Position numbers and translations under genes: made by a program | The notes under the pieces: model-generated | What the model saw: the letters and a program-made list of their open reading frames with translations, nothing else | What the model was told of the DNA's origin: nothing | The model's database searches: none | Shown: positions 16,454 to 29,733 of the stretch, one piece after another | How positions within the stretch are numbered: position 1 is the stretch's first letter | Layout: each line of letters starts with the position of its first letter | NCBI RefSeq assembly: GCF_005771675.1 | Contig: NZ_VAJM01000014.1 | Coordinates: 124,001 to 188,000, forward strand | Direction of reading: 5' to 3' | DNA: 64,000 nucleotides | From: Hymenobacter jeollabukensis | GTDB lineage: Bacteria; Bacteroidota; Bacteroidia; Cytophagales; Hymenobacteraceae

Positions 16454-16738
16454 ATGTCAAGCACTGGGTCCGCCGTCATCGAGCACACGCTCGGCCAGCT
16501 GCTGTACCGCGACCATTGGACGCCGACGCCCGTGGCACCGCTGTCGGCCACGTTTCGGGCCCTGGGCATGAGCGAGCTGGACCTGCACCTGCTGCTGTTC
16601 GAGCTGCAGATGAGCCACGGCGCGGTATACCCCATCGAATGCCTCGGCCTCGACGACGCGCTGCATTGCCTGGTGGTGCTGACGGTCATTCTGCTGCCAG
16701 TTGCCACGGCCCAGCCCCCCGATCAGCCCTGCCCCTGA
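16454..16738 (+). CDS. Acyl-carrier-protein-like protein lacking the modified serine
   Basis: 94 residues. Residues 8-75 can be aligned by eye with acyl carrier proteins: an N-terminal helix (VIEHTLGQLL), a loop, then the block LGMSELDLHLLLFELQ, which corresponds to the ACP motif LGADSLDTVELVMALE, and a further helix (LDDALHCLVVL). At the position of the phosphopantetheinylated Ser there is Glu41, preceded by Ser40, so normal modification is doubtful. It starts 11 bp after the TonB receptor and precedes an AMP-forming ligase by 312 bp. It could be a degenerate carrier, a scaffold or unrelated; the similarity is weak and judged by eye. The stop is preceded by a Pro-rich tail. Confidence 0.6.
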   Translation: MSSTGSAVIEHTLGQLLYRDHWTPTPVAPLSATFRALGMSELDLHLLLFELQMSHGAVYPIECLGLDDALHCLVVLTVILLPVATAQPPDQPCP

Positions 16739-17050
16739 CCTGCCCCGGACCACGCGGGCTCACATATTCGGGGGATTTTGTTCTTTTCGGAGGTCATTCT
16801 GGCCAACACTAAAAGTCAGGAATACCGCGAAGATGACGGCCCGGCGCCCCACTTTCTGCCAGCTGCTTGCATATTACCAGGCTGGCCGTGCAACCTTCCA
16901 GACCGGCTTTTACTCCTGAAAGCAGCCGTGACGAACGGGCCGCAAGCTCGTTTCACTCCCTCGCTTTTAAAAGTCAGACAGAGCCAATCATTCGGGGTGC
17001 GCAAGTGCGGTTGATTTCCCAGCTTTGGAATACCAACTCGCCCCGCTGCC
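16739..17050. other. Non-coding gap before the AMP-ligase gene
   Basis: No protein-like frame is evident in these 312 bases. They are less GC-rich than the neighbours and contain two copies of AAAAGTCAG (16811-16819 and 16969-16977), 158 bp apart, on the plus strand. The gap probably holds the promoter of the ligase operon, but no convincing -7 box was identified near 17051. Confidence 0.4.
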
Positions 17051-18496
17051 ATGACCGCCCCCAATTTCTACCAACACGTCCACCGCACCCTCGGCCAGCA
17101 GGCCGACGCCGTGCTGCTGGAGTGGCCGGGCGCGGGGCCGCAGGGCCGCCCGGCCACCTACACCGGCCATGACCTGGCCGGCCGCATCGGGGCCTACCAG
17201 CAGTTGCTCGGGCAGCGCGGCGTGGTGGCCGGGCAGCCGGTGCTGCTGCTGCTGCCCGTGGGCACGGAGCTGATCTGCGGACTGCTGGCCGTGATGAGCC
17301 TGGGCGCCGTGCCGGTGCTGCCGCCCGCCGGCGTGTCGGCGCGGGGGCTGCTGGCCTTGCGGCGACACGCCGGCATTCGGGCGGCCCTGGCCCCGGCCCC
17401 GCTGGCCCGGCGCTTCGGCTGGCTGACGCGTGGCTTGGGCCTGCGCCTGCTGGGTGCTCCGGCTGCCGAGGCCAGCACCCAGCCGCTGGCGCCGCAGCCG
17501 GTAGCCGCCGAGTTGCCAGCGCTGGTATCGCACAGCTCGGGCTCGACGGGCCGGCCCAAGGCCATTCGGCGCAGCCACCGGGTGCTCACGGCCCAGCACG
17601 AGGTGCTCAAGCAAGTGTTTCCGCCCTGGCGCGGGCAGCGCGATTTTCCGCTGTTTCCGAATGTGCTGCTGCACAACCTGGCCGTGGGCGCCGTCACCGT
17701 ACTGCCCGATGTGCCCTGGGGCCGCCTGGCCGGTTTCGACGCGGCCCGCGTAGTGGCGCAGCTGCGCGACACGGCCGTTGAAACGCTGACCGGCAACGTG
17801 TTCTATTTCAGCCGCCTGCTGGCGCACCTGCGTCATCAGCCCGCCGCCCTGCCGGCCGTGCGCGCCGTGGGCGTGGGCGGCTCGCCGGTGCCCGAATGGC
17901 TGCTGCGAGGGCTGCAGGATCAGCTGCCGCAGGCCGCCGTGTATGGCATCTACGGCTCCTCCGAAGCCGAGCCCATTGCCGTGCGCCGCTACGACGCCGC
18001 CCGGCCCGCCAATCCGCGCCACGGCTACTGCGTGGGCCCGGTGGTGGCCGGCCTGGAGTGCCGCCTGCAGGGCAACGGCGCCAGCGTCGAGCTGCCCGAC
18101 GGGCGCCGCTTCGTGGTGGGCGAAATCACGGTGCAGGGCGCGCACGTAGCCGCCGAGCCCGGCGCCTGGCTGCGCACCGGCGACTTCGGCTACTTCGACG
18201 ACGCGCAGTGCCTGTGGCTGACCGGCCGGCAGGGCAACGAGACGGTGCACCGCGGCGTGCAGCACTACCAGATCGAGCACGTGCTCCAGCAGCTGCCGGG
18301 CGTGGAGCGCGCCGCCGCCCGCGCCACGGCCACCGGCTTTGCCGTGTACGTGCAGGGCCCGGCCGAGCTGGAAACGGTGCGGGCCGCGCTGGCGGCGCAG
18401 TTTCCGCCCGGTCTTTGCAAGCAGCTGCACCGCCGCCCCGCGCTGCCCGTCGACGGCCGCCACCATTCCAAAATCCTCTACGACCAACTGCGCTAA
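17051..18496 (+). CDS. AMP-forming acyl-CoA synthetase / acyl-AMP ligase
   Basis: 481 residues of the ANL superfamily. The P-loop motif SHSSGSTGRPKAI is at residues 160-172, the adenine motif YGIYGSSEAEP near 300, and the hinge region WLRTGDFGYFD near 376. The C-terminal catalytic Lys is in HHSKILYDQL at the end, so both adenylation and thioester chemistry look possible. The enzyme activates a carboxylic acid with ATP and passes it to CoA or a carrier protein. It is shorter than most acyl-CoA synthetases (about 540). The next gene starts 16 bp after its stop. The carrier-like protein upstream and BtaA-like enzyme downstream suggest a dedicated pathway; the substrate is unknown. Confidence 0.85.
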   Translation: MTAPNFYQHVHRTLGQQADAVLLEWPGAGPQGRPATYTGHDLAGRIGAYQQLLGQRGVVAGQPVLLLLPVGTELICGLLAVMSLGAVPVLPPAGVSARGLLALRRHAGIRAALAPAPLARRFGWLTRGLGLRLLGAPAAEASTQPLAPQPVAAELPALVSHSSGSTGRPKAIRRSHRVLTAQHEVLKQVFPPWRGQRDFPLFPNVLLHNLAVGAVTVLPDVPWGRLAGFDAARVVAQLRDTAVETLTGNVFYFSRLLAHLRHQPAALPAVRAVGVGGSPVPEWLLRGLQDQLPQAAVYGIYGSSEAEPIAVRRYDAARPANPRHGYCVGPVVAGLECRLQGNGASVELPDGRRFVVGEITVQGAHVAAEPGAWLRTGDFGYFDDAQCLWLTGRQGNETVHRGVQHYQIEHVLQQLPGVERAAARATATGFAVYVQGPAELETVRAALAAQFPPGLCKQLHRRPALPVDGRHHSKILYDQLR

Positions 18497-18512
18497 GCGC
18501 CCCTACGCCGTG

Positions 18513-19643
18513 ATGCATTCCGAATTCTATAACGTCGCCCTCGACCGCCTGCGCTACTCGCTGGTGTGGGAAAGCCGCCGCACCCTGGCCGCCGCGCTGG
18601 ACGTGCAGCCCGCCGACGAGCTGCTCGTCATCTGCTCGGCCGGCTGCAACGCCCTCAACGCCCTGCTGCTCGGCGCCCGCCGCGTCACGGCCATCGACCT
18701 GAACCCGGTGCAGCTGCACCTGCTGGAGCTGAAGCGCTACCTCATTCTGCACCACGAGCACCAGGTGCTGCGCGCCCTGCTCGGCCTCGACGGGCCGGCG
18801 GCCGTGCTGCCCACCTGGCAGCAGCTGGAGCCCGCGCTGCCCCCGGCGCTGCGGGCCTACTGGGCACCCTTCTTCGAAAGCCACCCCAGCGGCATCTTGC
18901 CGGCCGGCAAGCTGGAAAGCTACCTGCTGGGCTTTCTGCCCACGCTCAGCCCGGCCCTGCAGCAGCGCGTGCGCCGCCTGGTCGAGTTCGACGACGTGAC
19001 GGAGCAGTACCGCTGGTTTCGGGAGCAGCTGCACGGCACCGCGTTCGAGGCGCAGTTCGTGACGTATTTCGACGAGGCCAACCTCAGCCGCGGGCGCGAC
19101 CCGAAACTGTTCAAGTACGCTGCGGAATCGGGCGGGCGGGCGTTTTACCAGCGCCTCGCCGGGCAGCTCAGCACCGAGTTGGTGCGCGACAATTTCTTTT
19201 TCCGCTTCTTCTTTTTCGGCCCCGCAGGCCTGCCCGAAGCGGTGCTGCCGCCCTGCTACCAGGCCCGCCACCACGCCCGGCTGCGCGCCAGCCTCCACCG
19301 CCTGAGCACCGTGCAGGGCGAGGCCAGCGCCTACCTGCTCAGCGACGCCGGCCGGAGCATCAGCAAAGCCAGCCTCTCCAACATCTTCGAGTACGTGAGC
19401 CCCGCCGACTTCGCCCAGGTGCGCGCGGCCCTGCTGGCCCGCCCCGCCGCAGCCCCGCTGCGCGCCGTGTACTGGAACCTGCTGCAGGCCCAGGGCGACG
19501 CCCCCGAACCGGCCGACCACGCCCCTACCCCGACCCGCCCCCAGCTGCCCGGCAGCTGCTTCTACTTCCGCGACGTGCGCGTGCTCGACGCCGCGCCCGC
19601 GCCTTCCCTCCCGCTTTCTTCCCCATCCCAAGCGTATGCATAG
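18513..19643 (+). CDS. BtaA/DUF3419-type SAM 3-amino-3-carboxypropyl transferase
   Basis: 376 residues. The N-terminal SAM-binding Rossmann motif is LLVICSAGCNALNALLLGA (37-55) followed by TAIDLNPVQLHLLELK (59-74), as in the DUF3419 family whose founding member BtaA moves the 3-amino-3-carboxypropyl group of SAM onto diacylglycerol in betaine-lipid synthesis. The central helical region with a DEANLSRGRDPKLFKYA segment and the C-terminal ISKASLSNIFEYVSPADF block also fit. No BtaB N-methyltransferase is adjacent, so the product is probably not the betaine lipid DGTS; the acceptor could be the ligase product. The start ATG at 18513 follows the ligase by 16 bp. The gene overlaps the next by 8 bp. 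Confidence 0.82.
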   Translation: MHSEFYNVALDRLRYSLVWESRRTLAAALDVQPADELLVICSAGCNALNALLLGARRVTAIDLNPVQLHLLELKRYLILHHEHQVLRALLGLDGPAAVLPTWQQLEPALPPALRAYWAPFFESHPSGILPAGKLESYLLGFLPTLSPALQQRVRRLVEFDDVTEQYRWFREQLHGTAFEAQFVTYFDEANLSRGRDPKLFKYAAESGGRAFYQRLAGQLSTELVRDNFFFRFFFFGPAGLPEAVLPPCYQARHHARLRASLHRLSTVQGEASAYLLSDAGRSISKASLSNIFEYVSPADFAQVRAALLARPAAAPLRAVYWNLLQAQGDAPEPADHAPTPTRPQLPGSCFYFRDVRVLDAAPAPSLPLSSPSQAYA

Positions 19644-20835
19644 CCCCGCCTATTACTGCGCGCGCCCCTTCGTGGAAGGCCTGATGCGCGCCCACGCCCC
19701 GCAGCGCCAGCTGCGCGTGCTCGACGTGCAGCCCCTGCCCGTCGACAGCTCCGCCAGCATTCTGGCCGTGCTCACGGCCGGGCAAACCAGCCGGCCGGTG
19801 GGTCATTTCGGTTTGCAGGTCACCTTCGAAATGGATGGGCAGCCGGCCCGCACCGAGCGCATGGTGCTCAAGCTCAAGCCGCCCGGCCACGAGGTATCGG
19901 CCATGCTGGCGGGGCTGGCCCAGGCCTGCGAGGGCGAGCTGGCCCAGGCGTACCCGGCTTTTGCCACCCGCAGCGGCTTTCACCACACCCATCACCGCGA
20001 GCTGGCCCTCTACGCCCACCACGCCGACGCCGCGCTGATGCCGCGCATCTGGGGCCTGCACCAGGACGACGAAACCGCCGAGGTCTACGCCATTCTGATG
20101 GAATACCTGGGCGAGGAAGTGGAGCTGCTGAACACGGTGATGCAGCCTGAAACCTGGACCGACGCCCACCTGCGCGCCGCCCTCGATGAGCTGGCCGCCT
20201 GGCACGCCCGGCACCTGCTGCCCGCCGGCACCGACACCGCGCCCGTCACCTGGCCCGACCTGCCTTCCGCGGCCTACATGCAGCAGCTGACCCCGCTCTG
20301 GCAGGCCCTGCTCGCCAACGCCGCCCAGCACCACCCCGGCCTCTACGGCCCGGAGCGCGCCGAATTGCTGCGTGAGGCCATTGCCCGCATTCCGGAGTAT
20401 TGGGCCGAGCTGGCCGCCGCCCCGCGCACCCTGATTCACAACGACCTGAACCCGCGCAACACCTGCTTCCGCCGCGCCGACGGCCGCCTGCAGCTCTGCG
20501 CCTACGACTGGGAGCTGGCCACCTACCACGTGCCGCAGTACGACGTGGTGGAGCTGCTCAGCTTCGTGCTCGACGCGGACCGCTACCACCTGCGCCCGCA
20601 CTACCTGGAGTACTACCGCCAGCAGCTACACGCCCGCACCGGCCGCTTCGCCGATGCCGACGCCTTCCGCCGCGTAACCGGCCTCGCGGCTCTGGATTTT
20701 GGCCTGCACCGCCTGGGCATGTACCTGATGGCGCACACCGTGGGTCCCTACCCCTACCTGCCCCGCGTGGTCGACAGCTACTTCGACACGCTGGCGCAGC
20801 TGCAGCCCCTGCGCCCGGAGCCGGCCTACGCCTGA
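19636..20835 (+). CDS. APH/choline-kinase-fold phosphotransferase
   Basis: 399 residues. The kinase catalytic loop is HNDLNPRN at about residue 267 and the metal-binding Asp is in AYDWELATYHVPQYD near 289, as in aminoglycoside phosphotransferases, choline kinases and DUF1679/ecdysteroid-kinase-like proteins. The N-terminal lobe has MVLKLKPPG (ATP Lys) and a HHRELALYAHH helix. It should phosphorylate a small alcohol or amine. Translation overlaps DUF3419 by 8 bp, so the two products act together. No resistance gene context is seen, and a biosynthetic role is more likely than drug resistance. Confidence 0.82.
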   Translation: MHSPAYYCARPFVEGLMRAHAPQRQLRVLDVQPLPVDSSASILAVLTAGQTSRPVGHFGLQVTFEMDGQPARTERMVLKLKPPGHEVSAMLAGLAQACEGELAQAYPAFATRSGFHHTHHRELALYAHHADAALMPRIWGLHQDDETAEVYAILMEYLGEEVELLNTVMQPETWTDAHLRAALDELAAWHARHLLPAGTDTAPVTWPDLPSAAYMQQLTPLWQALLANAAQHHPGLYGPERAELLREAIARIPEYWAELAAAPRTLIHNDLNPRNTCFRRADGRLQLCAYDWELATYHVPQYDVVELLSFVLDADRYHLRPHYLEYYRQQLHARTGRFADADAFRRVTGLAALDFGLHRLGMYLMAHTVGPYPYLPRVVDSYFDTLAQLQPLRPEPAYA

Positions 20836-20860
20836 TTTTCGGCTTCCATTATGGCCCTAC

Positions 20861-20889
20861 GCCCCGTTCGCCTCACTGGCGGGCGGGGC
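20861..20889 (+). terminator. Hairpin after the kinase operon
   Basis: GCCCCGTTCGCC (20861-20872) pairs with GGCGGGCGGGGC (20878-20889) with two G-U pairs and a 5-nt loop. GCAACGGTTTT follows. It is probably the terminator of the operon ending at 20835, in front of the convergent LysR gene. Confidence 0.5.
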
Positions 20890-20958
20890 GCAACGGTTTT
20901 GCGGGGATTGGAGACGCTGGAAACGGTATGACGTTCGGGGCCATTTTCCAATAACCAC

Positions 20959-21861
20959 TTACACTGCCTGACGCGGTCCTGCTGCTTGGGCAGCCGCCAG
21001 CCGCGTGGCCTCGGCCCGCAGGTTTTCGACCACCACGGAGCGTTCATCCCGCCGCCAGGTCAGGTACACCGTCGAGTGGTGGGGCAGCGGCAGGTAGCGC
21101 AGACCGGGCGTCGGGCTGTCGGCGTAGGACATGGGCAGGACGGCTATGCCCAGTCCGGCCGCCACCAGGCTGAGAATGGTGGCGCCGAAATCGGAGGTGA
21201 TGGTGCGCCGGGGCTGGTAGCCGTAGCCCTCGAACATCTGGCGCAGGTGCTGGGCGTAGGCGCCTTCGTCGCTGAGCGAGGGCAGAATGAAACGCTCGTC
21301 GCGCAGGGCGGCCAGGGAGGTAAACGTATCGGGGCGCACGGGGTGCGCGGCGGGCACGGCCAGGGCCAGAGGCTCGTCGAAAATCGGCACCGACACCAGG
21401 GCGGGGTTGCGGGCGGGCTCGCGCCAGAAGCCCACGTCGAGTTGGTAGGTGAGCAGCTGCGCCTCCGAATCGGCGGCCCCGATTTCGCGCAGCTCCAGCT
21501 GCACCAGCGGGTAGCGCGCGGTGAAGCCGGCCAGCAGCCGCGGCAGCCAGGCATAGGCCACCGAGCCCACGTGGCCCAGCCGCAGGCTGCCCACTTCGCC
21601 CGCGCTGACCTGCCGGGCGTGGCGCTGCACGGCCTCCAGCTCGGTGAGCAGGCGCGTCCACTCGGTTTGCAGCAGCTCGCCGGCGGCCGTCAGGCGCACC
21701 GTGCGCTGCCGACGCTCCAACAGCGGAAAGCCCAGCTCCTGCTCCAGCCCCTGCACGTAGCGGCTGAGCGAGGACTGCGTGATACCGAGCTGCTCGGCCG
21801 TCTGCCAGAAGTGCAGCCGCTCGGCCAGCTGCAGAAAGTAGCGCATGTGGTGCAGGTTCAT
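20959..21861 (-). CDS. LysR family transcriptional regulator
   Basis: 300 residues from the ATG at 21861. The N-terminal winged helix is standard (MRYFLQLAERLHFWQTAEQL, then GITQSSLSRYVQGLEQELG and a RTVRLTAAGELL wing). The effector-binding domain spans about 90-290, with the hinge SLRLGHVGSVAYAWL. The in-frame extension to 21939 contains the palindromic boxes and lacks LysR character, so the shorter start is chosen. The gene is divergent from a GNAT gene. Two T-N11-A-type or related palindromes sit directly upstream, so autoregulation and control of the neighbour are likely. Confidence 0.88.
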   Translation of the reverse strand: MNLHHMRYFLQLAERLHFWQTAEQLGITQSSLSRYVQGLEQELGFPLLERRQRTVRLTAAGELLQTEWTRLLTELEAVQRHARQVSAGEVGSLRLGHVGSVAYAWLPRLLAGFTARYPLVQLELREIGAADSEAQLLTYQLDVGFWREPARNPALVSVPIFDEPLALAVPAAHPVRPDTFTSLAALRDERFILPSLSDEGAYAQHLRQMFEGYGYQPRRTITSDFGATILSLVAAGLGIAVLPMSYADSPTPGLRYLPLPHHSTVYLTWRRDERSVVVENLRAEATRLAAAQAAGPRQAV

Positions 21862-21863
21862 CG

Positions 21864-21878
21864 ATGCAATAACTGCAT
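21864..21878. promoter_or_regulatory. LysR-type box ATGCA-N5-TGCAT
   Basis: A perfect 15-bp palindrome, ATGCAATAACTGCAT, fits the T-N11-A rule of LysR boxes. It lies 2 bp upstream of the LysR start codon in the divergent region, where a bound dimer would block its own gene. Confidence 0.55.
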
Positions 21879-21886
21879 GAATAGCG

Positions 21887-21902
21887 GCAATATCAGCATT
21901 GC
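21887..21902. promoter_or_regulatory. Second palindrome GCAAT-N6-ATTGC
   Basis: GCAAT (21887-21891) and ATTGC (21898-21902) form a perfect inverted repeat with a 6-bp centre. It lies 8 bp from the first box, so the pair resembles the recognition and activation sites used by LysR tetramers. Confidence 0.45.
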
Positions 21903-22010
21903 GGTGCATCAAAGCCCGCCCTAGTTTTGCCCCGGTCACCCCTCAGTTGCCCGGCATCCTGCGCGGATTTTGCTAGGCCGCTGCGCAGATTTACCCCTAC
22001 TTTCCTCTCC

Positions 22011-22460
22011 ATGTTGCACCTTGTTCGTACCGACTCCGATAACCCCGATTTCCGCGCCCTGGTACGCCTGCTCGACCAGGACCTGCAGGTGCGCGACGGC
22101 GCCGAGCACTCGTTCTACGCCCAGTTCAACAAGGTCGACGCCATCCGGCACGTGGTGGTGGCCTACCTCCACGACGAGCCCGTGGGCTGCGGCGCCTTCA
22201 AGCCCTACGACGAGGCCTCGGTGGAAATCAAGCGCATGTTCGTGCAGCCCGCGCACCGGGGCCGTGGCGTGGCCCAGGCCGTGCTGATGGAACTGGAACG
22301 CTGGGCCCAGGAGCTGGGCTACGCCGGCTGTGTGCTCGAAACTGGCAAAAAGCAGCCCGAGGCCATTCGCCTCTACCAGAAAAGCGGCTACCAGCTCATC
22401 CCGAACTACGGCCAGTACATCGGCGTCGACAACAGCGTGTGCATGCAAAAGACCGTGTAG
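22011..22460 (+). CDS. GNAT family N-acetyltransferase
   Basis: 149 residues. The acetyl-CoA loop is VQPAHRGRGVAQAVLMELER (about residues 79-98), preceded by the strand SVEIKRMFV and followed by ETGKKQPEAIRLYQKSGY, all standard for GNAT enzymes acting on small molecules. The ATG at 22011 gives a normal length; the upstream open frame (from 21927) has no protein character. It is divergent from the LysR regulator and may be its target. A TACTTTCC box ends 5 nt before the ATG. The acceptor is unknown. Confidence 0.85.
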   Translation: MLHLVRTDSDNPDFRALVRLLDQDLQVRDGAEHSFYAQFNKVDAIRHVVVAYLHDEPVGCGAFKPYDEASVEIKRMFVQPAHRGRGVAQAVLMELERWAQELGYAGCVLETGKKQPEAIRLYQKSGYQLIPNYGQYIGVDNSVCMQKTV

Positions 22461-22520
22461 AGCGGCGGTCAACGCGTAGCGGCGGCGGTCGGCGTGTTCA
22501 AGACCAGTGGTTCTACGACT

Positions 22521-23636
22521 TTAGCTTCGCTGAGCTTCGGTTGGAATCGTAGGGCTGCTGGCACCTTGCAAATCCTGGCCGAACAGCGCGTAGTGGGCGG
22601 TTTCGGCGGGCAGGCCGTCGGTGAAGTGCAGGGAGAAGTTGCCGGTGCGCATCAGGCAGAAGATGACGTCGTCGTACCGCTCGCGGAAGTGCACCATGCC
22701 GTAGGCACCCAAGTACGACATCAGCCCGCGCTGGCGGTAGTCGGGGTGCACGCCCACGGTTTTGGCCAGCAGCTGCCGGCGCTGCAGCCGCGCGAAGTCG
22801 CGCTCGAACACCGGCGGGCGGCTATCGGGCAGGTGCAGCTCGGTGTAGTTGGGGTGGCAGAAGCTGAGCGCGGCCAGCGCGCCCGTGGCCTGGTCGCGGA
22901 AGAGCACCGAGGTATGCGGGCACAGCTTGGCGGCGTACTGCAGGTTGTAGAGCAGCCGGAACTGCTCCAGCGACACGGGCCGGTAGCCGGGGTTGGCCCC
23001 GAAAATAGCCTGCACCAGCTCGAAAATGGCCGCTTCGTGCTCCTGCCAGGTTTGCGCGTTGAGCGGAATGAAGTCGAAGGGAATCTGGGCCAGCTCGCGC
23101 AGCAGCATGTCCTTTTCGGTGAAGACGGCGGGCACGTCCTGGGGCCGGATGCGGCGGCTCTCGAAGGTGCTGACGGGCGCCAGGCCCAGGCCGGCCAGCA
23201 GCGTGGGGTAGTAGTCGGGGTTGATGGGCTCCCGATCGAACTGACCCCAGCTGGGCGCGGGCGGCAGCCGCAGCCGGTAGCGGTGGTAGGTGTTGAAATC
23301 CAGCGGCCCGACGAGTCGGCGCCGGCCGCGCTGCCGCGCATCGGCCTGCAGCGCTTCGAAGGCAGCTTGGTTGACGGCGGGGTCATTGGTGGTTTCCCAG
23401 AAGCCGAAAAAGGCTTCGTCTGACTCCTGCGGAAAGATACCAACTAGGCGGAGCGTGTCCTCATCAGTGTAGACAATCAGCTCGTTGCGCCCGGCTTCCT
23501 GGGCGAATAGCTGCTCGGTCAGCGCCCGGTCTTCGGTGGGGCGCATTGGCTGGTCGGCGTACACGCGGGCCGGCACTGCCCAGAATGCTTCGGGCAGCTG
23601 ATCGTGGTAAGGAAGGCGCAGAATGGGGCTAGTCAT
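22521..23636 (-). CDS. Two-domain GNAT-like protein
   Basis: 371 residues, about twice a GNAT domain. The N-terminal half has DTLRLVGIFPQ and a GRRRLVGPLDFNTYHRYRLR segment typical of GNAT-fold proteins without a clear CoA loop. The C-terminal half has AALSFCHPN, then LLAKTVGVHPDYRQRGLMSY, in which VHPDYRQRGL is the acetyl-CoA binding motif. The domain order resembles bacterial N-acyltransferase-superfamily proteins of unknown substrate. It lies downstream of the UbiA and PEP-synthase-like genes on the same strand, 141 bp away, so a shared pathway is possible. Confidence 0.7.
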   Translation of the reverse strand: MTSPILRLPYHDQLPEAFWAVPARVYADQPMRPTEDRALTEQLFAQEAGRNELIVYTDEDTLRLVGIFPQESDEAFFGFWETTNDPAVNQAAFEALQADARQRGRRRLVGPLDFNTYHRYRLRLPPAPSWGQFDREPINPDYYPTLLAGLGLAPVSTFESRRIRPQDVPAVFTEKDMLLRELAQIPFDFIPLNAQTWQEHEAAIFELVQAIFGANPGYRPVSLEQFRLLYNLQYAAKLCPHTSVLFRDQATGALAALSFCHPNYTELHLPDSRPPVFERDFARLQRRQLLAKTVGVHPDYRQRGLMSYLGAYGMVHFRERYDDVIFCLMRTGNFSLHFTDGLPAETAHYALFGQDLQGASSPTIPTEAQRS

Positions 23637-23777
23637 ATTGAGTTCAGGCGGGCGGCGGGGTCGAAGCCGGAATGTAGCGCGAACTTTAGCTACATCGACC
23701 TCGGGCTCAAGTCGTGTATCGTTGCGGGCTGGCGGCGGCCTTTGCCCCGAACTGGGCGCGGGAGCACATCGGCTTCG

Positions 23778-26372
23778 CTACAGCAACTCGATTTCGCCGG
23801 TGGCGCCGTCCATATGCACCTGCTGGCCGCTTTGCAGGCGCCGCGTGAGGCCGGGCACGTTGATGATGGTGGGAATGCCCAGCTCGCGCAGCAAGATGAC
23901 CGAGTGCGAGAGCGAGGAGCCTTTTTCAATGATGACGCCGCGGCAGACCGGAAACAGCGCGGCCCAGCCCGGGTCGGTGCGCAGGGCACACACGATTTTG
24001 CCAGCCACGGCCAGGTCGTCGTCGGGGCTGGTGACAACGATGATTTCGCCCGAAAGCTGGCCGGGGTAGCAGCCGGTGCCGCGCAGCGCGCCTTCGTCTT
24101 CGGCGGTGGATGCGGCGGCCAGCGGCGGCGAGGGCACCGTCACGCGGCTGGGCGCGTGCTGGCGGGCGTAGCTGGCAAACTCCTGCTGCCGCTCGGCCAC
24201 CAGCGGCGGCAGCGCCTTTTCGGTTTCGGCCGCCGCAGCCGTTTCGCCGATCAGCCGGCGGGCCGTGGCTTCGATTTCGGCTTCCGTCAGGTAAAACACG
24301 TCGCGCGGGGCGGCCAGCTGCCCGGCGGCCGTCAGCTGCTCGCCCATCGCCAGGTACAGCCCGCGGTACATGCCAAACAGCCGGGTACGCTCCAGCCGCA
24401 GCGACTCGCGGTGCGCAATGGCGCGCTGCAGCTGGGCCAGCCGCTGCCGCAGCTGCCGCCGGCGCCAGGCCGCCTTGCCCCGCAGCAGCGCCTCTACTTC
24501 GGCCTGGGCGCCGCGCAGCACGGCGTGGTCGGCGGCCCCGAACTCGGCGGGCGCGGGGCCGACCAGGAAGTTGCGCAGGTACTGGTAGAAAATCTGCGGG
24601 CGGGTGCGCATGGTCTGGGTTTCGAGCTTCAGCTCCCCCACCGTCCGGTCGCCAAACTGGGCGATGAACGCGGCCACTTCGGCGGCAAAGGCGGGGAACT
24701 GCGCCTGCACCTGCGCGGGTAGGTCGTCGGGCTGCGCCACGATGAGTTGGCGCAACGGTTCCTGCGGGCGCACCTGGGCGGCCAGGGCCAGCAGGCGGCG
24801 GGTGGGCTGGGTGCTGGCCAGGTCCTGGTCGCCGGCGAGGTAGCGGCGCAGCAGCTCTTCGGGCTCGGCGGCGCCCAGCTGCCGCAGCTGGCGCAGGGCG
24901 CGGCCGTTGGTCATCATCACGTAGAAGTCGTTGACGATGGGCGTGGTCCACTGGCCCAGCAGCTCCCGGTCGAGGCGGGCTTTTTCGGCCAGCAGCTCGG
25001 CCGGGCTCAGCGCCGAGAGCGGCCGGGCGTAGAAGCGCTGGTAGTGCCCGGCGAAGTGGGCGTGGAAACGGCGCACCGATCCGTCGAGACGGGCGAAGGC
25101 CAACAGCAGGCGCGAGAGGTTCAGCAACAAGCGCGGCGCCAGGCGCAGCTTGTCGGCGAGGGTTTTCTCGCGGGTCTGCACGAAGTCGACGGGCTCTTCC
25201 AGGCCCATCATGCGCTCCATGTCGTCCTTGTTCTGGCGGAAGGCGGGCAGCAGCTGCAGGCCGCGGTACCAATTGTTGATGTTGTAGTAGATGCGGCCCT
25301 GCACGAGGCCGAGCAGGTTGGTCACCACCGGCTCCTGAGCGGCAATTTGCGCGGCGGGTAGGCCCAGCGCGTGCATGGTCTGGCGGTACACGGTGGCGTA
25401 GGCGCGGCGGGCAAAGCTGAAGGTCAGCGGCGTGGTCACCCCGCAGTAGCTTTCCTGGATGTTGCTGTTGTCGTAGACGACGACCTCCGGAATGGCCTGG
25501 GTAATGGGCCGGGCCTGCACCACCCACACCGCCCCGGCCGCATCGACCACAAATTCCACGTCCTGCGGCCCGCCAAAAGCCGCCTCCAGGCGCTGGCCGA
25601 TATCGAACAGCTCGGCGAGCTGGGCCGCGCCCAGGCAGGGCGCGGCCTGCTGCCCGGCCTCGACGGCCTGGGTAATCAGGCCACCTGCGGGCCGGGCCAC
25701 CAGCTGCTCTTCTTTCGGGGTAATAAGCTGCCGATGCAGCTGACCAGTTTTCTTCTCGAAGTAAAACTCATCGGGCTGCAGCTGCCCGCCGACCAGCCCT
25801 TCGCCGAAGCCCCAGACGGCGTGGATGGCCAGCTCCTGCGGGTACTCGGGAAAGGTCGTGAACATGACGCCGCTGGCCACGGGAGCCACCTGCCGCTGCA
25901 CGATGACGGCCGGCCGGGCCGCCAGGTTCAGCCCCTTCTGCCGGCGGTAGGCCAGGGCCCGCTCGGAGTAGGCCGAGGCGGCGCAGCGGGCCACGGCCGT
26001 GAGCACCGCCGATTCCGAGGTCAGGTTCAGAAACGAATCCATCAGCCCGGCAAAGGCCGCGTGCTGCCCGTCTTCGTCGGCCACGGAGGAGCGCACCACC
26101 ACGGGCTGGTGGGGGAAGCCCCAGCCGTGCAGCGCGGTGCGGAGCTGGTTCAGCAGCGTTTCGGGCAGCTCAAATTCCGTCAGCTGCTGCCGGCGGGCGG
26201 TCGGCTCCGCGTCGCCGGCAGCTGAGGTTGCCGGCAGCGCATCGAATTCCTCGGCGGGAATGACGACGAAATCGGGCACGCGCAGGCCGGCCGCCCGCAG
26301 GCGCTGCAATCCGGCCGCTTTGCCGCCGATGGTGTAGTCCGGACCCGCCGGTTGGTGCGTGGCAAGAACCAT
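23778..26372 (-). CDS. PEP-synthase-like PEP/pyruvate-binding phosphotransferase
   Basis: 864 residues from the ATG at 26372. An N-terminal ATP-grasp PEP/pyruvate-binding domain (GGKAAGLQRLRAAGLRVPDF at residues 16-35, VVVRSSVADEDGQHAAFAG near 100, a WVVQARPIT end near 290) is followed by a long helical linker. The C-terminal swivelling PEP-utiliser domain has the phospho-carrier His in KGSSLSHSVILLRELGIPTI (about residue 820). The order matches PEP synthase and rifampicin phosphotransferase-type enzymes, which phosphorylate via a His intermediate. The C-terminal TIM barrel of true PpsA is absent, so the product is unlikely to be PEP. It starts 4 bp after the UbiA stop, implying a coupled function. 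Confidence 0.82.
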   Translation of the reverse strand: MVLATHQPAGPDYTIGGKAAGLQRLRAAGLRVPDFVVIPAEEFDALPATSAAGDAEPTARRQQLTEFELPETLLNQLRTALHGWGFPHQPVVVRSSVADEDGQHAAFAGLMDSFLNLTSESAVLTAVARCAASAYSERALAYRRQKGLNLAARPAVIVQRQVAPVASGVMFTTFPEYPQELAIHAVWGFGEGLVGGQLQPDEFYFEKKTGQLHRQLITPKEEQLVARPAGGLITQAVEAGQQAAPCLGAAQLAELFDIGQRLEAAFGGPQDVEFVVDAAGAVWVVQARPITQAIPEVVVYDNSNIQESYCGVTTPLTFSFARRAYATVYRQTMHALGLPAAQIAAQEPVVTNLLGLVQGRIYYNINNWYRGLQLLPAFRQNKDDMERMMGLEEPVDFVQTREKTLADKLRLAPRLLLNLSRLLLAFARLDGSVRRFHAHFAGHYQRFYARPLSALSPAELLAEKARLDRELLGQWTTPIVNDFYVMMTNGRALRQLRQLGAAEPEELLRRYLAGDQDLASTQPTRRLLALAAQVRPQEPLRQLIVAQPDDLPAQVQAQFPAFAAEVAAFIAQFGDRTVGELKLETQTMRTRPQIFYQYLRNFLVGPAPAEFGAADHAVLRGAQAEVEALLRGKAAWRRRQLRQRLAQLQRAIAHRESLRLERTRLFGMYRGLYLAMGEQLTAAGQLAAPRDVFYLTEAEIEATARRLIGETAAAAETEKALPPLVAERQQEFASYARQHAPSRVTVPSPPLAAASTAEDEGALRGTGCYPGQLSGEIIVVTSPDDDLAVAGKIVCALRTDPGWAALFPVCRGVIIEKGSSLSHSVILLRELGIPTIINVPGLTRRLQSGQQVHMDGATGEIELL

Positions 26373-26376
26373 GAGC

Positions 26377-27282
26377 TTAGCGCACTTGCGCAACGATTTC
26401 CACGATGATGGCCACGTAGCTCGTGAGCATAAACAGCGACACCAGCAGCTCGGCCACTTTCAGCGGCCCCGCGGCGGGGCGGCGCCAGCTCAGCCCGTAG
26501 GCGGCCACGGTAGCCGCAAACAAGGCCGCCATCAGTCCGAACGGCCAACTGCGGGCGTGCAACAGGCGCAGCAGGTAGCCCTGCACCACCGTGCCGGCCA
26601 GCAGCACCAGCAGCACCGCCGCAATAGCGCCGGCGTAGCCTAGGGTGCGCGAGTAGGAGTCGACGCCGGGCCGCTCGTCGGGGGCGGGCTTGATTTTGCG
26701 GGCAATTTCGAAGGCCAGCCCGCCGAGCAGGCTCAGCAGTCCGAGCAGCAGCAACGGCCGGGTGAGCAGCGGCCGGGCCGCGTAGGCGGCCCACACCCAG
26801 CCGATAATCAGCGGCATGATGAGCAGGTGCGTGAGGGCGTAGAGCACCAGCCGGGCCCGCAGCCACTGCGGCGCAAAAAACTCGTAGCGCATCACCAGGC
26901 TGTAGCCCACGGCCAGGGCCCAGGCCAGCAGCACGGGCCAGCCCATCCAGGCCGACCAGACCGCTTCGAGCAGTAGCCCGGCCCCGGCCAGCCGCCGCAG
27001 CTGCCCCAGCGTCACGCGGCCCGATTGCAGCACCCGCTCGGGGAAGTTGACGGCGTCGGCGGCGTAGTCCTTGATTTCGTCGAAGACGCGCAGGCGGAAG
27101 AAAAAGGAAATGACGGCCACGATGCCCAGCGCCTCGCGGGCGCCGAAACCGGCCAGGGCGGCGGCGGCCGGCTGGGTGGCCCGCGCCACGGCGTACACCG
27201 TCAGAAACAGGATGGCAAACAGGGCCATGTTGACCGGTGGAAACCGCTCCCGCAGATAAGCCCACAACGCACGTAGATTCAT
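26377..27282 (-). CDS. UbiA family prenyltransferase-like membrane protein
   Basis: 301 residues with about eight or nine hydrophobic helices. The first Asp-rich motif is RVFDEIKDYAADAVNFPERV (about residues 65-84), a form of the UbiA N/D-x-x-D-x-x-x-D motif. The second is in IARKIKPAPDERPGVDSYS, near residue 196. These bind prenyl diphosphate-Mg. Usual products are aromatic or lipid prenyl conjugates. A second UbiA-like gene (MenA type) at 63370 is clearly different, so this one is a specialised paralogue. It forms a tight pair with the PEP-synthase-like gene and is divergent from an RND exporter. The acceptor is unknown. Confidence 0.82.
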   Translation of the reverse strand: MNLRALWAYLRERFPPVNMALFAILFLTVYAVARATQPAAAALAGFGAREALGIVAVISFFFRLRVFDEIKDYAADAVNFPERVLQSGRVTLGQLRRLAGAGLLLEAVWSAWMGWPVLLAWALAVGYSLVMRYEFFAPQWLRARLVLYALTHLLIMPLIIGWVWAAYAARPLLTRPLLLLGLLSLLGGLAFEIARKIKPAPDERPGVDSYSRTLGYAGAIAAVLLVLLAGTVVQGYLLRLLHARSWPFGLMAALFAATVAAYGLSWRRPAAGPLKVAELLVSLFMLTSYVAIIVEIVAQVR

Positions 27283-27492
27283 ACCGCCAAATTAGCTGCC
27301 GCGGGCCGGTGCTCCGCCTAATGACGAGTCGAATCAGACTTTATTCCGCAGCACCCCGAAGCATAAAAGCCGCCGCTTTGCCGTGTCAGCGGATTAGCGG
27401 CGCTGTTACCCGGGAGGCGGCCTGACTTTAGTATTTCTGCCCCAAGTGGGCCGGCAGCACTCAAAGCCGCCCCCGGCGCGCTACTTTACCGC

Positions 27493-29733
27493 ATGATTGA
27501 AGGATTATACCGCTTCCGGTACTGGCTGCTGAGCCTTTTGCTGATTCTAGGTGTGGCGCTCTGGCCCGGGGTGCGCGCCGCCGTGCAGGTCGACAACAGC
27601 CTGGAGGCCTGGTTTCTGCAAAACGACCCGGCCCTGCGCGCCTACCACGACTTCCAGCAGCGCTTCGGCAACGACGAGGTGGTCATCGTGGTGGTGCACG
27701 ACGACAAGACGCTGCTGACGCCCGCCTCCTTCCAGCGTTTCCGGGCCTTGAGCCGGGAGCTGGAAGCCTTGCCGAGCGTGGCCGCCGTTATCGGCCCCGG
27801 CAACGCCCTGGTGCCCGCCCGCGCCGGTCTGACGGGCAGCGCCGGCCCGCAGCCGCTGCTGCCGCCCGCGGCCCGGCCCGAGCAGGTGCGCCGCACGCTG
27901 GCCGCGCACCCTATGCTACAAGAGCAGCTGTTTTCGCCCGACCTGCGCACGGCCCGCTTCGTGGTGGTGCTGCGCCGGCTGCCCGGCTTCGACGAGCGGC
28001 GCGGCGCCATTCTGGATGAAGTCACGCGCACGGTGTACCGGCACGTGCCCCGCGAGCAGGCCTACCTGGGCGGCGTGGGCATCATCTTCGCCGGGCTGAA
28101 TGCCCTCTCGCAGCACGATTTCGGGCTGTTCCTGGGCCTGGGCTACGCGCTGATGTTCGGCGTTTTTCTGCTGCTCTACCGCAACGGCTGGCTGCTGGTG
28201 TACGTGCTCGGCATCGTGGGCGGAGCTACCTACCTGACGCTGGGCGTGTACGGGCTGTTGGGCTACCGGCTGAACCTGATGACGGTGCTGCTGCCGGTGG
28301 TGCTCATCCTGCTCGGCATTATGGACGCCATGCATGTCATCAACGAGCGAAACCTACTGGCTGATCCAGGGGCCGCGCCGGGGCTGCCGCCGCGTACCTC
28401 GGCCCTGCAGGCGCTGCGCCACACGTTTTCGCCCTGCCTGGCCACCATGCTCACCACCGTGGCCGGCTTCCTGGCCCTGGTCACCAGCCCGATGGCCATT
28501 CTGCGCAACTTCGGCTTGTTCGCCGCCCTCGGCATTGCCCTGTGCCTGGTGCTGACCTTCGTGCTCGGCACCATCATCCTGCCGCTGACCACGCCCGCGC
28601 CCCGGGCCACGCGCTCCACCAGCCGGGGCCTGGCCCGCTTCTACACCTACCTGCTGGCCCGCCGGGGTCGGTTCACCGCCATTTCAGCGGCCCTTACCGT
28701 GCTGGCCGTAGCCGGCATGTTCCTCATCAAAGCCGACACCTACACCCTCGGCTACTTTCCGCAGAATCACCCGGTGGTGCAGGACCACCGCCGCATGGAA
28801 GCCACCTGGGGCCCCTACCTGCCGCTGGAGCTGCTGGTGGAGCCCCGCCCCGGCCACCAGCTCCACGACGCGGCCGTGGTGCAGGCGGCGGCCCGCTTCG
28901 CCGATTCGGTGCGCGGGCTGCCGGGCGTGGGGCGGGTATTCGGCTTTCACTCGCTCTACCAAGCCGGGCTGGAAACGCAGTTTCCGGGTCGGGGCCGGCG
29001 GGCCCTGGGCAGCCAGAGCCTGCTCAACGCCGTGGACCGGCAGCTCGCGGCCGATTACCCGCAGCTGGCGGCCGAGTTTATTCACCGCGGCAGCGGCACC
29101 GGGCGCATCACGGTGTCGGGCAAGATGCTGTCGGCGCGGCAGCTCACGGCCAAAACCGACACGCTGCTGCGCTTGGCCGCCCGCACGCTGGGGCCGGTGG
29201 CCCGGGTGCGCCCGGCCGGCTACCAGCCCATGTACGCCCGCATCACCGAGTACGTGACGACCTCGCAGACCCAGAGCCTGCTCCTGTCCATCGTCACCGT
29301 GTTCGGGCTGGTGTGGCTGTACGTGCGCAGCCTGCGCCTGGCCCTGCTCACGGTGCTGCCCAACCTGTTTCCGGTGCTGGTGCTGCTGGGCCTGATGGGC
29401 TGGTGCGGCATCCGGCTCGATACGGCCACGGCCAGCATTGCCGCCATTGTGCTCGGCCTCTGCGTCGACGATACGGTGCACTACATTCACCACTACCGCG
29501 AGGCCCGGCGCAGCATGGCGCCCGGGGCGGCGCGGCTGGCCACCATCACCCACGTCGGGCCCACCATCGTGCTCACCAGCCTGGTTCTGTTCGTGGGCTA
29601 CGCCGTGATGGGCCTGGGCTCCTTGAAAACGGTGCAGCTGTTCGGGGTGCTCACGGCCGCCAGCATTGCCGCCGCGCTGTTCGGCGAAATCGTGATTTTC
29701 CCGCTGGTGCTGGCGCGGTTCGACCGGGAGTGA
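27493..29733 (+). CDS. RND superfamily (MMPL/HpnN-type) transporter
   Basis: 746 residues in two repeats. Each has one helix, a large periplasmic domain and a block of five helices. The first block is about residues 210-370 (VYVLGIVGGATYLTLGVYGL) and the second about 590-740 (LALLTVLPNLFPVLVLLGLM). Sterol-sensing/MMPL motifs such as GIMDAMHVINE and GLCVDDTVHYIHHYREARR are present, and Asp residues in the second helix of each block fit proton coupling. MMPL and HpnN relatives export lipids or hydrophobic compounds. It is divergent from UbiA, so it may export a lipid-like product of that cluster. A TACTTTAC box ends 3 nt before the ATG. Confidence 0.87.
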   Translation: MIEGLYRFRYWLLSLLLILGVALWPGVRAAVQVDNSLEAWFLQNDPALRAYHDFQQRFGNDEVVIVVVHDDKTLLTPASFQRFRALSRELEALPSVAAVIGPGNALVPARAGLTGSAGPQPLLPPAARPEQVRRTLAAHPMLQEQLFSPDLRTARFVVVLRRLPGFDERRGAILDEVTRTVYRHVPREQAYLGGVGIIFAGLNALSQHDFGLFLGLGYALMFGVFLLLYRNGWLLVYVLGIVGGATYLTLGVYGLLGYRLNLMTVLLPVVLILLGIMDAMHVINERNLLADPGAAPGLPPRTSALQALRHTFSPCLATMLTTVAGFLALVTSPMAILRNFGLFAALGIALCLVLTFVLGTIILPLTTPAPRATRSTSRGLARFYTYLLARRGRFTAISAALTVLAVAGMFLIKADTYTLGYFPQNHPVVQDHRRMEATWGPYLPLELLVEPRPGHQLHDAAVVQAAARFADSVRGLPGVGRVFGFHSLYQAGLETQFPGRGRRALGSQSLLNAVDRQLAADYPQLAAEFIHRGSGTGRITVSGKMLSARQLTAKTDTLLRLAARTLGPVARVRPAGYQPMYARITEYVTTSQTQSLLLSIVTVFGLVWLYVRSLRLALLTVLPNLFPVLVLLGLMGWCGIRLDTATASIAAIVLGLCVDDTVHYIHHYREARRSMAPGAARLATITHVGPTIVLTSLVLFVGYAVMGLGSLKTVQLFGVLTAASIAAALFGEIVIFPLVLARFDRE

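Follow-up and report, generated by a model that had tools for sequence, protein, structure and literature searches.

The stretch of DNA examined here (hereafter the window) comprises 64,000 nucleotides of a Hymenobacter jeollabukensis contig (NZ_VAJM01000014.1, positions 124,001 to 188,000) and holds, at its positions 17051-29733, a conserved unit of seven genes, among them a DUF3419 gene that stands between those of an AMP-forming ligase and an APH-fold kinase. The host genome amounts to 6.18 Mb in 27 contigs and is near Hymenobacter edaphi (L002), whose DUF3419 protein is 95% identical. The ligase (P0002, 17051..18496, + strand; PF00501, E 5e-29) is a PRK09274/OleC-like adenylating enzyme, with NCBIfam scores of 210 bits for PRK09274 and 108 bits for the OleC-type beta-lactone synthetase, both below the curated cut-offs. 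It is followed by a predicted 3-amino-3-carboxypropyl transferase of the DUF3419 (BtaA) family (P0003, 18513..19643, + strand; PF11899, E 1e-37); this protein falls in the cluster-type branch of the BtaA superfamily and is the sole PF11899 match in the whole host genome. The third gene codes for an APH-fold small-molecule kinase (P0004, 19636..20835, + strand; PF01636, E 1e-15; EcKL, E 2e-6), whose alignment retains HNDLNPRN and YDWE in 20/20 rows and which thus has both the HxDxxxxN catalytic loop and the metal-binding Asp of APH-fold kinases. Open reading frames (ORFs) and Pfam confirmed the placement and shared direction (+ strand) of these three genes in the first-pass annotation, as well as the 16-bp gap between ligase and DUF3419 and the 8-bp overlap between DUF3419 and APH.

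The four additional genes lie at 22521-29733. A tandem GNAT-fold acyltransferase (P0005, 22521..23636, - strand) gave nothing above cut-off in a Pfam search and was assigned from its predicted fold, since its structure model (mean predicted local distance difference test score, pLDDT, 85.9) matches tandem GNAT structures with a best E of 1e-11 and a TM-score of about 0.5. Next to it is a dikinase-type enzyme resembling PPDK, RPH and PigC, with ATP-binding and phosphohistidine domains (P0006, 23778..26393, - strand; PF01326, E 3e-62; PF00391, E 2e-17), whose ORF was called from a TTG with the first in-frame ATG 21 bp downstream. Its top NCBIfam matches are uncharacterised subgroups named after phosphoenolpyruvate synthase (747, 717 and 380 bits), followed by RedH, PigC and rifamycin phosphotransferase (264-266 bits), all below cut-off, and its phosphohistidine site His830 is invariant in the 14 aligned rows. 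The third gene encodes a UbiA-like membrane protein (P0007, 26377..27282, - strand), for which PF01040 stayed below cut-off (E 1e-6; 28.4 bits for the protein alone, cut-off 34.2). However, PF01040 matched 11 of the 15 proteins in the corresponding alignment (A5; best E 1e-21), and the A5 profile retrieved chlorophyll synthase and digeranylgeranylglyceryl phosphate (DGGGP) synthase chains from the PDB at E about 1e-8, DGGGP synthase being one of three distinct PDB sequences matched (E 2e-8). We therefore regard P0007, as judged from its sequence, as a divergent UbiA-like protein. Members of the UbiA superfamily carry two aspartate-rich motifs, the second of which usually reads DxxxD; in our alignment D68, D72 and D76 are invariant and the second region reads R195 K196 ... 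E203. The last gene codes for an MMPL/RND exporter of the HAE3 type (P0008, 27493..29733, + strand; PF03176, E 1e-25), which scored 150 bits against the HAE3 family, under its cut-off of 352. In the window the set is arranged as two runs facing in opposite directions and the exporter gene, whose start is 210 bp from that of the UbiA-like gene. A promoter and terminator scan returned no more than chance. The first-pass annotation had described a four-gene unit, of which the ligase, DUF3419 and APH genes are genuine members, whereas its fourth gene, an acyl carrier protein (ACP)-like ORF, does not belong and the four conserved genes at 22521-29733 had been missed.

The window's DUF3419 protein was used as query to retrieve 20 loci, of which one is distant (L020) and 19 are near relatives from Hymenobacter, Solirubrum, Pontibacter, Rudanella, Fibrella and uncultured kin; upstream sequence is short in a few of the 20. 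In the near loci, where DUF3419 is present in 19/19 by construction, we found APH in 19, the GNAT, dikinase and UbiA-like genes in 18 each, the AMP ligase in 17 and MMPL in 13 (the contig of L013 ends before the MMPL position). All seven genes are codirectional in L007, which is Hymenobacter sp. BT18, and in L008 and L011; L015 retains DUF3419 and APH alone. The order ligase-DUF3419-APH recurs in 17/19 near loci, the exceptions being L015, without ligase, and L021, which ends at a contig edge before the ligase, and this constancy means that the three-gene order is kept more than chance would allow. In addition, DUF3419 and APH form a single uninterrupted reading frame in Hymenobacter rubripertinctus (L005, 10001-12337).

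Conservation of the set extends beyond these relatives, and the synteny whose lack in relatives the first-pass annotation had named as counting against its proposal is present. A DUF3419 profile was positive in 45 of 395 Bacteroidota genomes, and the surroundings of the gene were inspected in 20 of the 44 other than the host (L052-L071). UbiA-like and dikinase genes occur together in nine of these loci (L052-L060), and eleven (L061-L071) are without both. A plasmid of the alphaproteobacterium Roseinatronobacter (L072) also carries the set, as a compact operon. Within the nine distant loci plus L072 (n = 10), the UbiA-like, dikinase, DUF3419 and GNAT genes are found in 10/10, a membrane protein that we call F4 in 9, the AMP ligase in 8 and an HMG-CoA reductase (HMGR) in 8 (truncated in L072, where the record ends); a fatty-acyl-reductase-type gene and a phosphatidylserine (PS) decarboxylase occur in two (L052, L058), a diacylglycerol (DAG)-kinase-type gene in one (L052) and MMPL in one (L058). 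Across lineages the gene order is rearranged and the halves sometimes lie on opposite strands. The UbiA-like profile, run against the same 395 genomes, gave ten positives, i.e., the window's own and the nine of L052-L060, in all of which DUF3419 lies no more than 8 kb away on the same contig, and no further UbiA-like gene, alone or otherwise, at E 1e-12. Since nine of these ten genomes had supplied rows to the profile, this search is no independent test of linkage; likewise, the co-occurrence probabilities (1e-10 by genome, 3e-6 by genus) were not used as evidence, because the same genomes fed the profile and had been chosen by DUF3419, and kinship is uncorrected in them.

A more independent test was offered by the phylum of G395, the genome of L020, from which L020 alone had entered the UbiA-like profile. 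Here the UbiA-like gene was found in 27 of 282 genomes, and the 26 newly retrieved loci of this L020 group, many of whose contigs end within a few kb, contain the dikinase in 18, MMPL in 14, DUF3419 in 10, the AMP ligase in 9, GNAT in 7 and an HMGR-APH fusion in 3. Linkage in this group is partial, because several loci with sufficient room are without DUF3419 and two of them are also without the dikinase. The contig of L020 carries the title of a Klebsiella pneumoniae metagenome-assembled genome, a label that is probably wrong, since its DUF3419 protein groups with those of the G395 group in the tree described below.

In L084, L085 and L095 HMGR and, after it, an APH kinase domain are parts of a single protein, as Pfam shows for L085 and L095, and P0004 aligns with these HMGR-APH fusions at 155-190 bits and 31-37% identity; the fusion therefore points to acyl reduction being linked to alcohol phosphorylation. 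The cluster HMGR is the only HMGR of genomes G016, G207, G258, G270 and G278, in which Dxr of the methylerythritol phosphate (MEP) pathway is present and a search for MvaD gave no match, while in G064 and G158, where Dxr is missing and a second HMGR lies outside the cluster, an MvaD-like gene scores 161-164 bits (cut-off 171). As the enzyme is thus either the sole HMGR, accompanied by Dxr and not by MvaD, or backed by a second copy elsewhere, the cluster HMGR does not serve standard isoprenoid supply, a conclusion that is based on MvaD and Dxr and applies to the distant clusters, not to Hymenobacter. In the genomes devoid of any HMGR (G140, G356) the cluster holds a fatty-acyl-reductase-type gene, the AMP ligase being absent from the 20 kb inspected; L052 and L058 are the two clusters that combine this gene with the lack of HMGR and AMP ligase. 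Because the reductase-type gene stands where both others are missing, the AMP ligase and HMGR may together replace a fatty-acyl reductase in converting acid to alcohol, although the pattern comes from few independent lineages. The kinase position itself is filled by APH in 19/19 near loci, by F4 in 9/10 distant loci and by the DAG-kinase-type gene in the remaining one. Searches of F4 against Pfam, NCBIfam and PDB gave no placement; by its motifs it may belong to the phytol/dolichol kinase family, a label confirmed by no library. The single HMGR of the host genome (L104, G000:C21:115856-116971) has an extra N-terminal domain, and the host possesses Dxr and matches MvaD at chance level only.

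What was observed directly is the gene set with its conservation and fusions, the enzyme families and the intact motifs. To us these suggest a pathway devoted to making and exporting a membrane aminolipid, for which S-adenosylmethionine (SAM) supplies its 3-amino-3-carboxypropyl unit as the head group. For this statement as a whole we estimate a probability of roughly 0.5. A lipid product is favoured because the set includes membrane proteins and an exporter and has fatty-acyl-reductase variants, and the lipid-like half of the first-pass proposal (a lipid or metallophore-like molecule) thus survives. In the scheme that we infer, including each substrate, the order of steps, the product and the ether nature of the bond, the AMP ligase would activate a carboxylic acid, which may be a fatty acid of the long-chain or 3-hydroxy type, and the acyl thioester would be reduced by an HMGR-type enzyme, which relatives encode within or close to the set and for which the host has an unlinked candidate. 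The alcohol so formed would then be phosphorylated by the APH kinase or, in other lineages, by a different kinase, after which the dikinase-type enzyme may add or activate a further phosphate and the UbiA-like enzyme may move the activated chain onto a polar backbone through an ether-type bond. DUF3419 would place the aminocarboxypropyl group of SAM on a hydroxyl, in a reaction like that of BtaA except that no BtaB methylation follows, the tandem GNAT would acylate an amine, perhaps that of the head group, and the MMPL protein would move the lipid outward. Some lineages may shorten the head group to aminopropyl, as is hinted by the decarboxylase genes near DUF3419 (PS decarboxylase in L052 and L058, and a pyridoxal phosphate (PLP) decarboxylase in L061, LysA 293 bits, cut-off 298), which may also be housekeeping copies. 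In its fullest form the proposal describes an ether-type lipid, made from an acid reduced by a repurposed HMGR or fatty-acyl reductase, with a fused or linked kinase, a UbiA-type enzyme plus PigC-like dikinase and an aminocarboxypropyl cap that may be decarboxylated to aminopropyl in some lineages; it would constitute a new class of bacterial membrane lipid, spread over Bacteroidota, Pseudomonadota (one plasmid) and the L020 group partly by horizontal transfer. We advance this fuller version as tentative.

Several observations weigh against the aminolipid proposal. In the searches made, none of the genes proved to have a close relative that is characterised, and Pfam detected no glycerolipid acyltransferase among the seven. 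When P0003 and P0004 were compared by sequence with the PDB, no match was found, and the DUF3419 structure model (mean pLDDT 79.2) has no structural match in the PDB at E <= 0.001, its top hit being an uncharacterised Leptospira protein at E 0.013, above that threshold. The second metal-binding region of the UbiA-like protein departs from the usual DxxxD, the assignment of F4 as the kinase that replaces APH comes from motifs only, and the roles given to the dikinase and UbiA-like enzymes and to the GNAT are guesses from family chemistry. MMPL was not found in L005, L015, L017 and L018 and is a remnant in L016; the well-scoring DUF3419 loci L061-L063 are without UbiA-like and dikinase genes; and L087, L091, L095, L098, L100 and L101 of the L020 group have room for DUF3419 yet are without it, L087 and L091 additionally without the dikinase. 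Finally, no reductase lies in the window's cluster, the host's sole HMGR is unlinked to it, and three genomes of the same family without a UbiA-like gene also have an HMGR. For the latter two reasons, the host HMGR is a candidate only for the reduction in Hymenobacter.

The same genes could instead tailor an isoprenoid or other hydrophobic alcohol, in a manner resembling phytol salvage (alcohol kinase, second phosphorylation, UbiA-type transfer), with DUF3419 and GNAT decorating a small acceptor, so that the product would be a meroterpenoid-like natural product and not a bulk membrane lipid. This is consistent with the UbiA-like profile, which matches chlorophyll synthase as well as DGGGP synthase, with the recurrence of kinase, dikinase-type and UbiA-like genes together, and with the prodigiosin ligases PigC and RedH being among the more distant relatives of the dikinase. 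We nevertheless consider it doubtful: inspection by eye, with no family search made, recognised no prenyl-diphosphate synthase among the recurring neighbours, and the fatty-acyl-reductase-type, DAG-kinase-type and phosphatidylserine-decarboxylase genes in two relatives fit fatty lipids better.

Rather improbable is that aminocarboxypropyl transfer yields a soluble metallophore or signal, like nicotianamine or staphylopine, that is re-imported through the TonB receptor adjoining the set. Metallophores are the products of NAS, MtNAS and CntL. These enzymes are described in PMC10491745 as aminocarboxypropyl transferases that make small molecules. However, MtNAS and CntL appeared in the DUF3419 fold search at E 0.1-0.4 only, the UbiA-like and MMPL membrane proteins are conserved, and the receptor is kept in 3/20 loci (90-95% identical), with partial matches of 28-31% in five others. 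Since membrane proteins are conserved and relatives have fatty-acyl-reductase-type and lipid-kinase-type genes, the metallophore half of the earlier proposal is unsupported, and so is the uptake through the receptor that it had envisaged.

An ordinary betaine-lipid pathway (diacylglyceryl trimethylhomoserine, DGTS) with BtaB located elsewhere in the genome would draw on DUF3419 being the BtaA family, and we judge it very unlikely. In a tree of 52 DUF3419 proteins, the 38 cluster proteins lie on one side of a branch with support 93/93 (just under the tool's star level), beside which L061 and L062 fall with support 83/72, whereas the BtaA-type proteins form a separate clade of 8 with support 100/100; the deepest branches of the tree are weak. 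FEY is found in 15/15 cluster rows at a place where 5/5 BtaA-type rows have a DW pair. A SAM methyltransferase adjoins DUF3419, in BtaAB-like pairs, in 6/8 of the loci L064-L071 from several Bacteroidota families, and none of the set's other genes stands alongside these six pairs; the same adjacency is seen on a Rhizobium leguminosarum plasmid. The seven genes include no BtaB N-methyltransferase, and no BtaB ortholog was found genome-wide in the host, where the best match to the BtaB profile reached 55 bits as against 149 bits for a genuine pair outside the profile and 335 and 338 bits for two profile members. A betaine lipid with a hidden BtaB was therefore rejected, and the earlier description of an unusual biosynthetic set with predicted aminocarboxypropyl chemistry and no BtaB holds. 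Least credible of all is the absence of any common pathway, with functionally unrelated neighbours travelling together through chance or descent: gene order differs from lineage to lineage and the halves can oppose, L015 retains DUF3419 and APH only and parts of the set are missing in some L020-group loci, but the content is kept despite rearrangement, with compact operons in L007, L008, L011 and L072, HMGR-APH fusions and the single DUF3419-APH reading frame of L005.

Other ORFs nearby were judged to lie outside the set. The ACP-like ORF (P0001, 16454..16738, + strand), proposed in the first-pass annotation as an operon member, has no match in Pfam or NCBIfam, is 312 bp from the ligase and was found by tblastn in 2/20 loci (L003, L009), in each case behind the same TonB receptor. 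Carrier proteins carry a DSL motif, whereas P0001 reads SEL at the putative phosphopantetheine Ser, as do its counterparts in L003 and L009. A carrier-protein route and TonB uptake were both rejected, neither gene being conserved with the set and each being retained in the nearest relatives only. The two halves of the set are separated by a LysR-type regulator (20959-21939, - strand) and a small acetyltransferase-like gene (22009-22460, + strand), both named by reading of the translation, with no family search made, and both judged lineage-specific: the regulator clustered with counterparts from L002, L003 and L009 only, and the small acetyltransferase-like gene with those from L002 and L003 only.

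DUF3419 and PPDK-type genes were also observed in other surroundings. In L061 (6996-12369) DUF3419 is fused to a PEMT-type methyltransferase domain and neighboured by DAG-kinase-type, GNAT-like and LysA-like PLP decarboxylase genes, which makes this another possible aminocarboxypropyl-lipid gene set. DUF3419 adjoins MacB/FtsX-type ABC transporter genes and a GNAT in L063 (6259-11830), and on a conjugative plasmid of Rhizobium sp. (L074, 3805-10143) it forms an unbroken row with a ketoacyl-ACP synthase III, an oxidoreductase, a metallo-hydrolase and a 'CoF synthetase'. Plasmids of Methylocystis (L075, 6127-18508) and Streptomyces clavuligerus (L076, 6024-12702) have PPDK-type genes within other biosynthesis-like clusters.

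If correct, the aminolipid proposal would add a lipid pathway that is neither that of ordinary phospholipids nor that of betaine lipids, and would give a joint and testable function to DUF3419, UbiA-like, PPDK-like and tandem-GNAT proteins of unknown role. It may also explain why HMGR is kept in some bacteria without the standard mevalonate pathway. Should the lipid be located at the cell surface, some of the 'unidentified aminolipids' reported in Hymenobacter species descriptions might be this product, a point on which a literature search returned nothing. No description of the gene set was found in the literature searched, where subscription journals are sparsely covered, in agreement with the earlier statement that no described pathway has these genes; PMC12419801, in the part available, treats UbiA-like and HMGR neighbourhoods of other genes and not this set.

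The closest comparisons are with systems that share single parts of the set. Myxobacterial elb resembles it in that its ether lipid is thought to be supplied through activation and reduction of an acyl chain, and differs in that the available part of PMC9131029, by whose description the two were compared, names ElbD (multidomain), ElbA/ElbE (epimerase-like), ElbB (HAD-like) and ElbC (of unknown function) and there names no DUF3419, UbiA or PPDK-type gene. As the elb genes named are others, elb-type ether lipids were set aside. Microcin C7 MccD/MccE likewise involves aminocarboxypropyl transfer, possibly followed by decarboxylation (one of two routes in PMC10491745), which recalls the decarboxylase genes near DUF3419 in L052, L058 and L061; the window's set, however, has no decarboxylase, and MccD and BtaA are, according to the same review, apparently not homologous. 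The archaeal DGGGP synthase, an ether-forming member of the UbiA family, is matched by the UbiA-like profile, whereas the second motif is altered here and no other archaeal-lipid gene was recognised in the set. PigC/RedH and rifamycin phosphotransferase share the layout of PPDK_N and phosphohistidine domains with P0006, which nevertheless reaches 264-266 bits against cut-offs of 999-1350 and scores higher with the phosphoenolpyruvate-synthase-named subgroups. BtaA-BtaB synthesis of DGTS, whose reactions are described in PMC6302742, has in common with the set a DUF3419-family transferase with SAM as predicted aminocarboxypropyl donor, and differs by its BtaB, by the other DUF3419 branch (DW instead of FEY) and by the seven-gene set found here. 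Since all parts belong to known enzyme families, we class the set as a variant of bacterial aminolipid biosynthesis.

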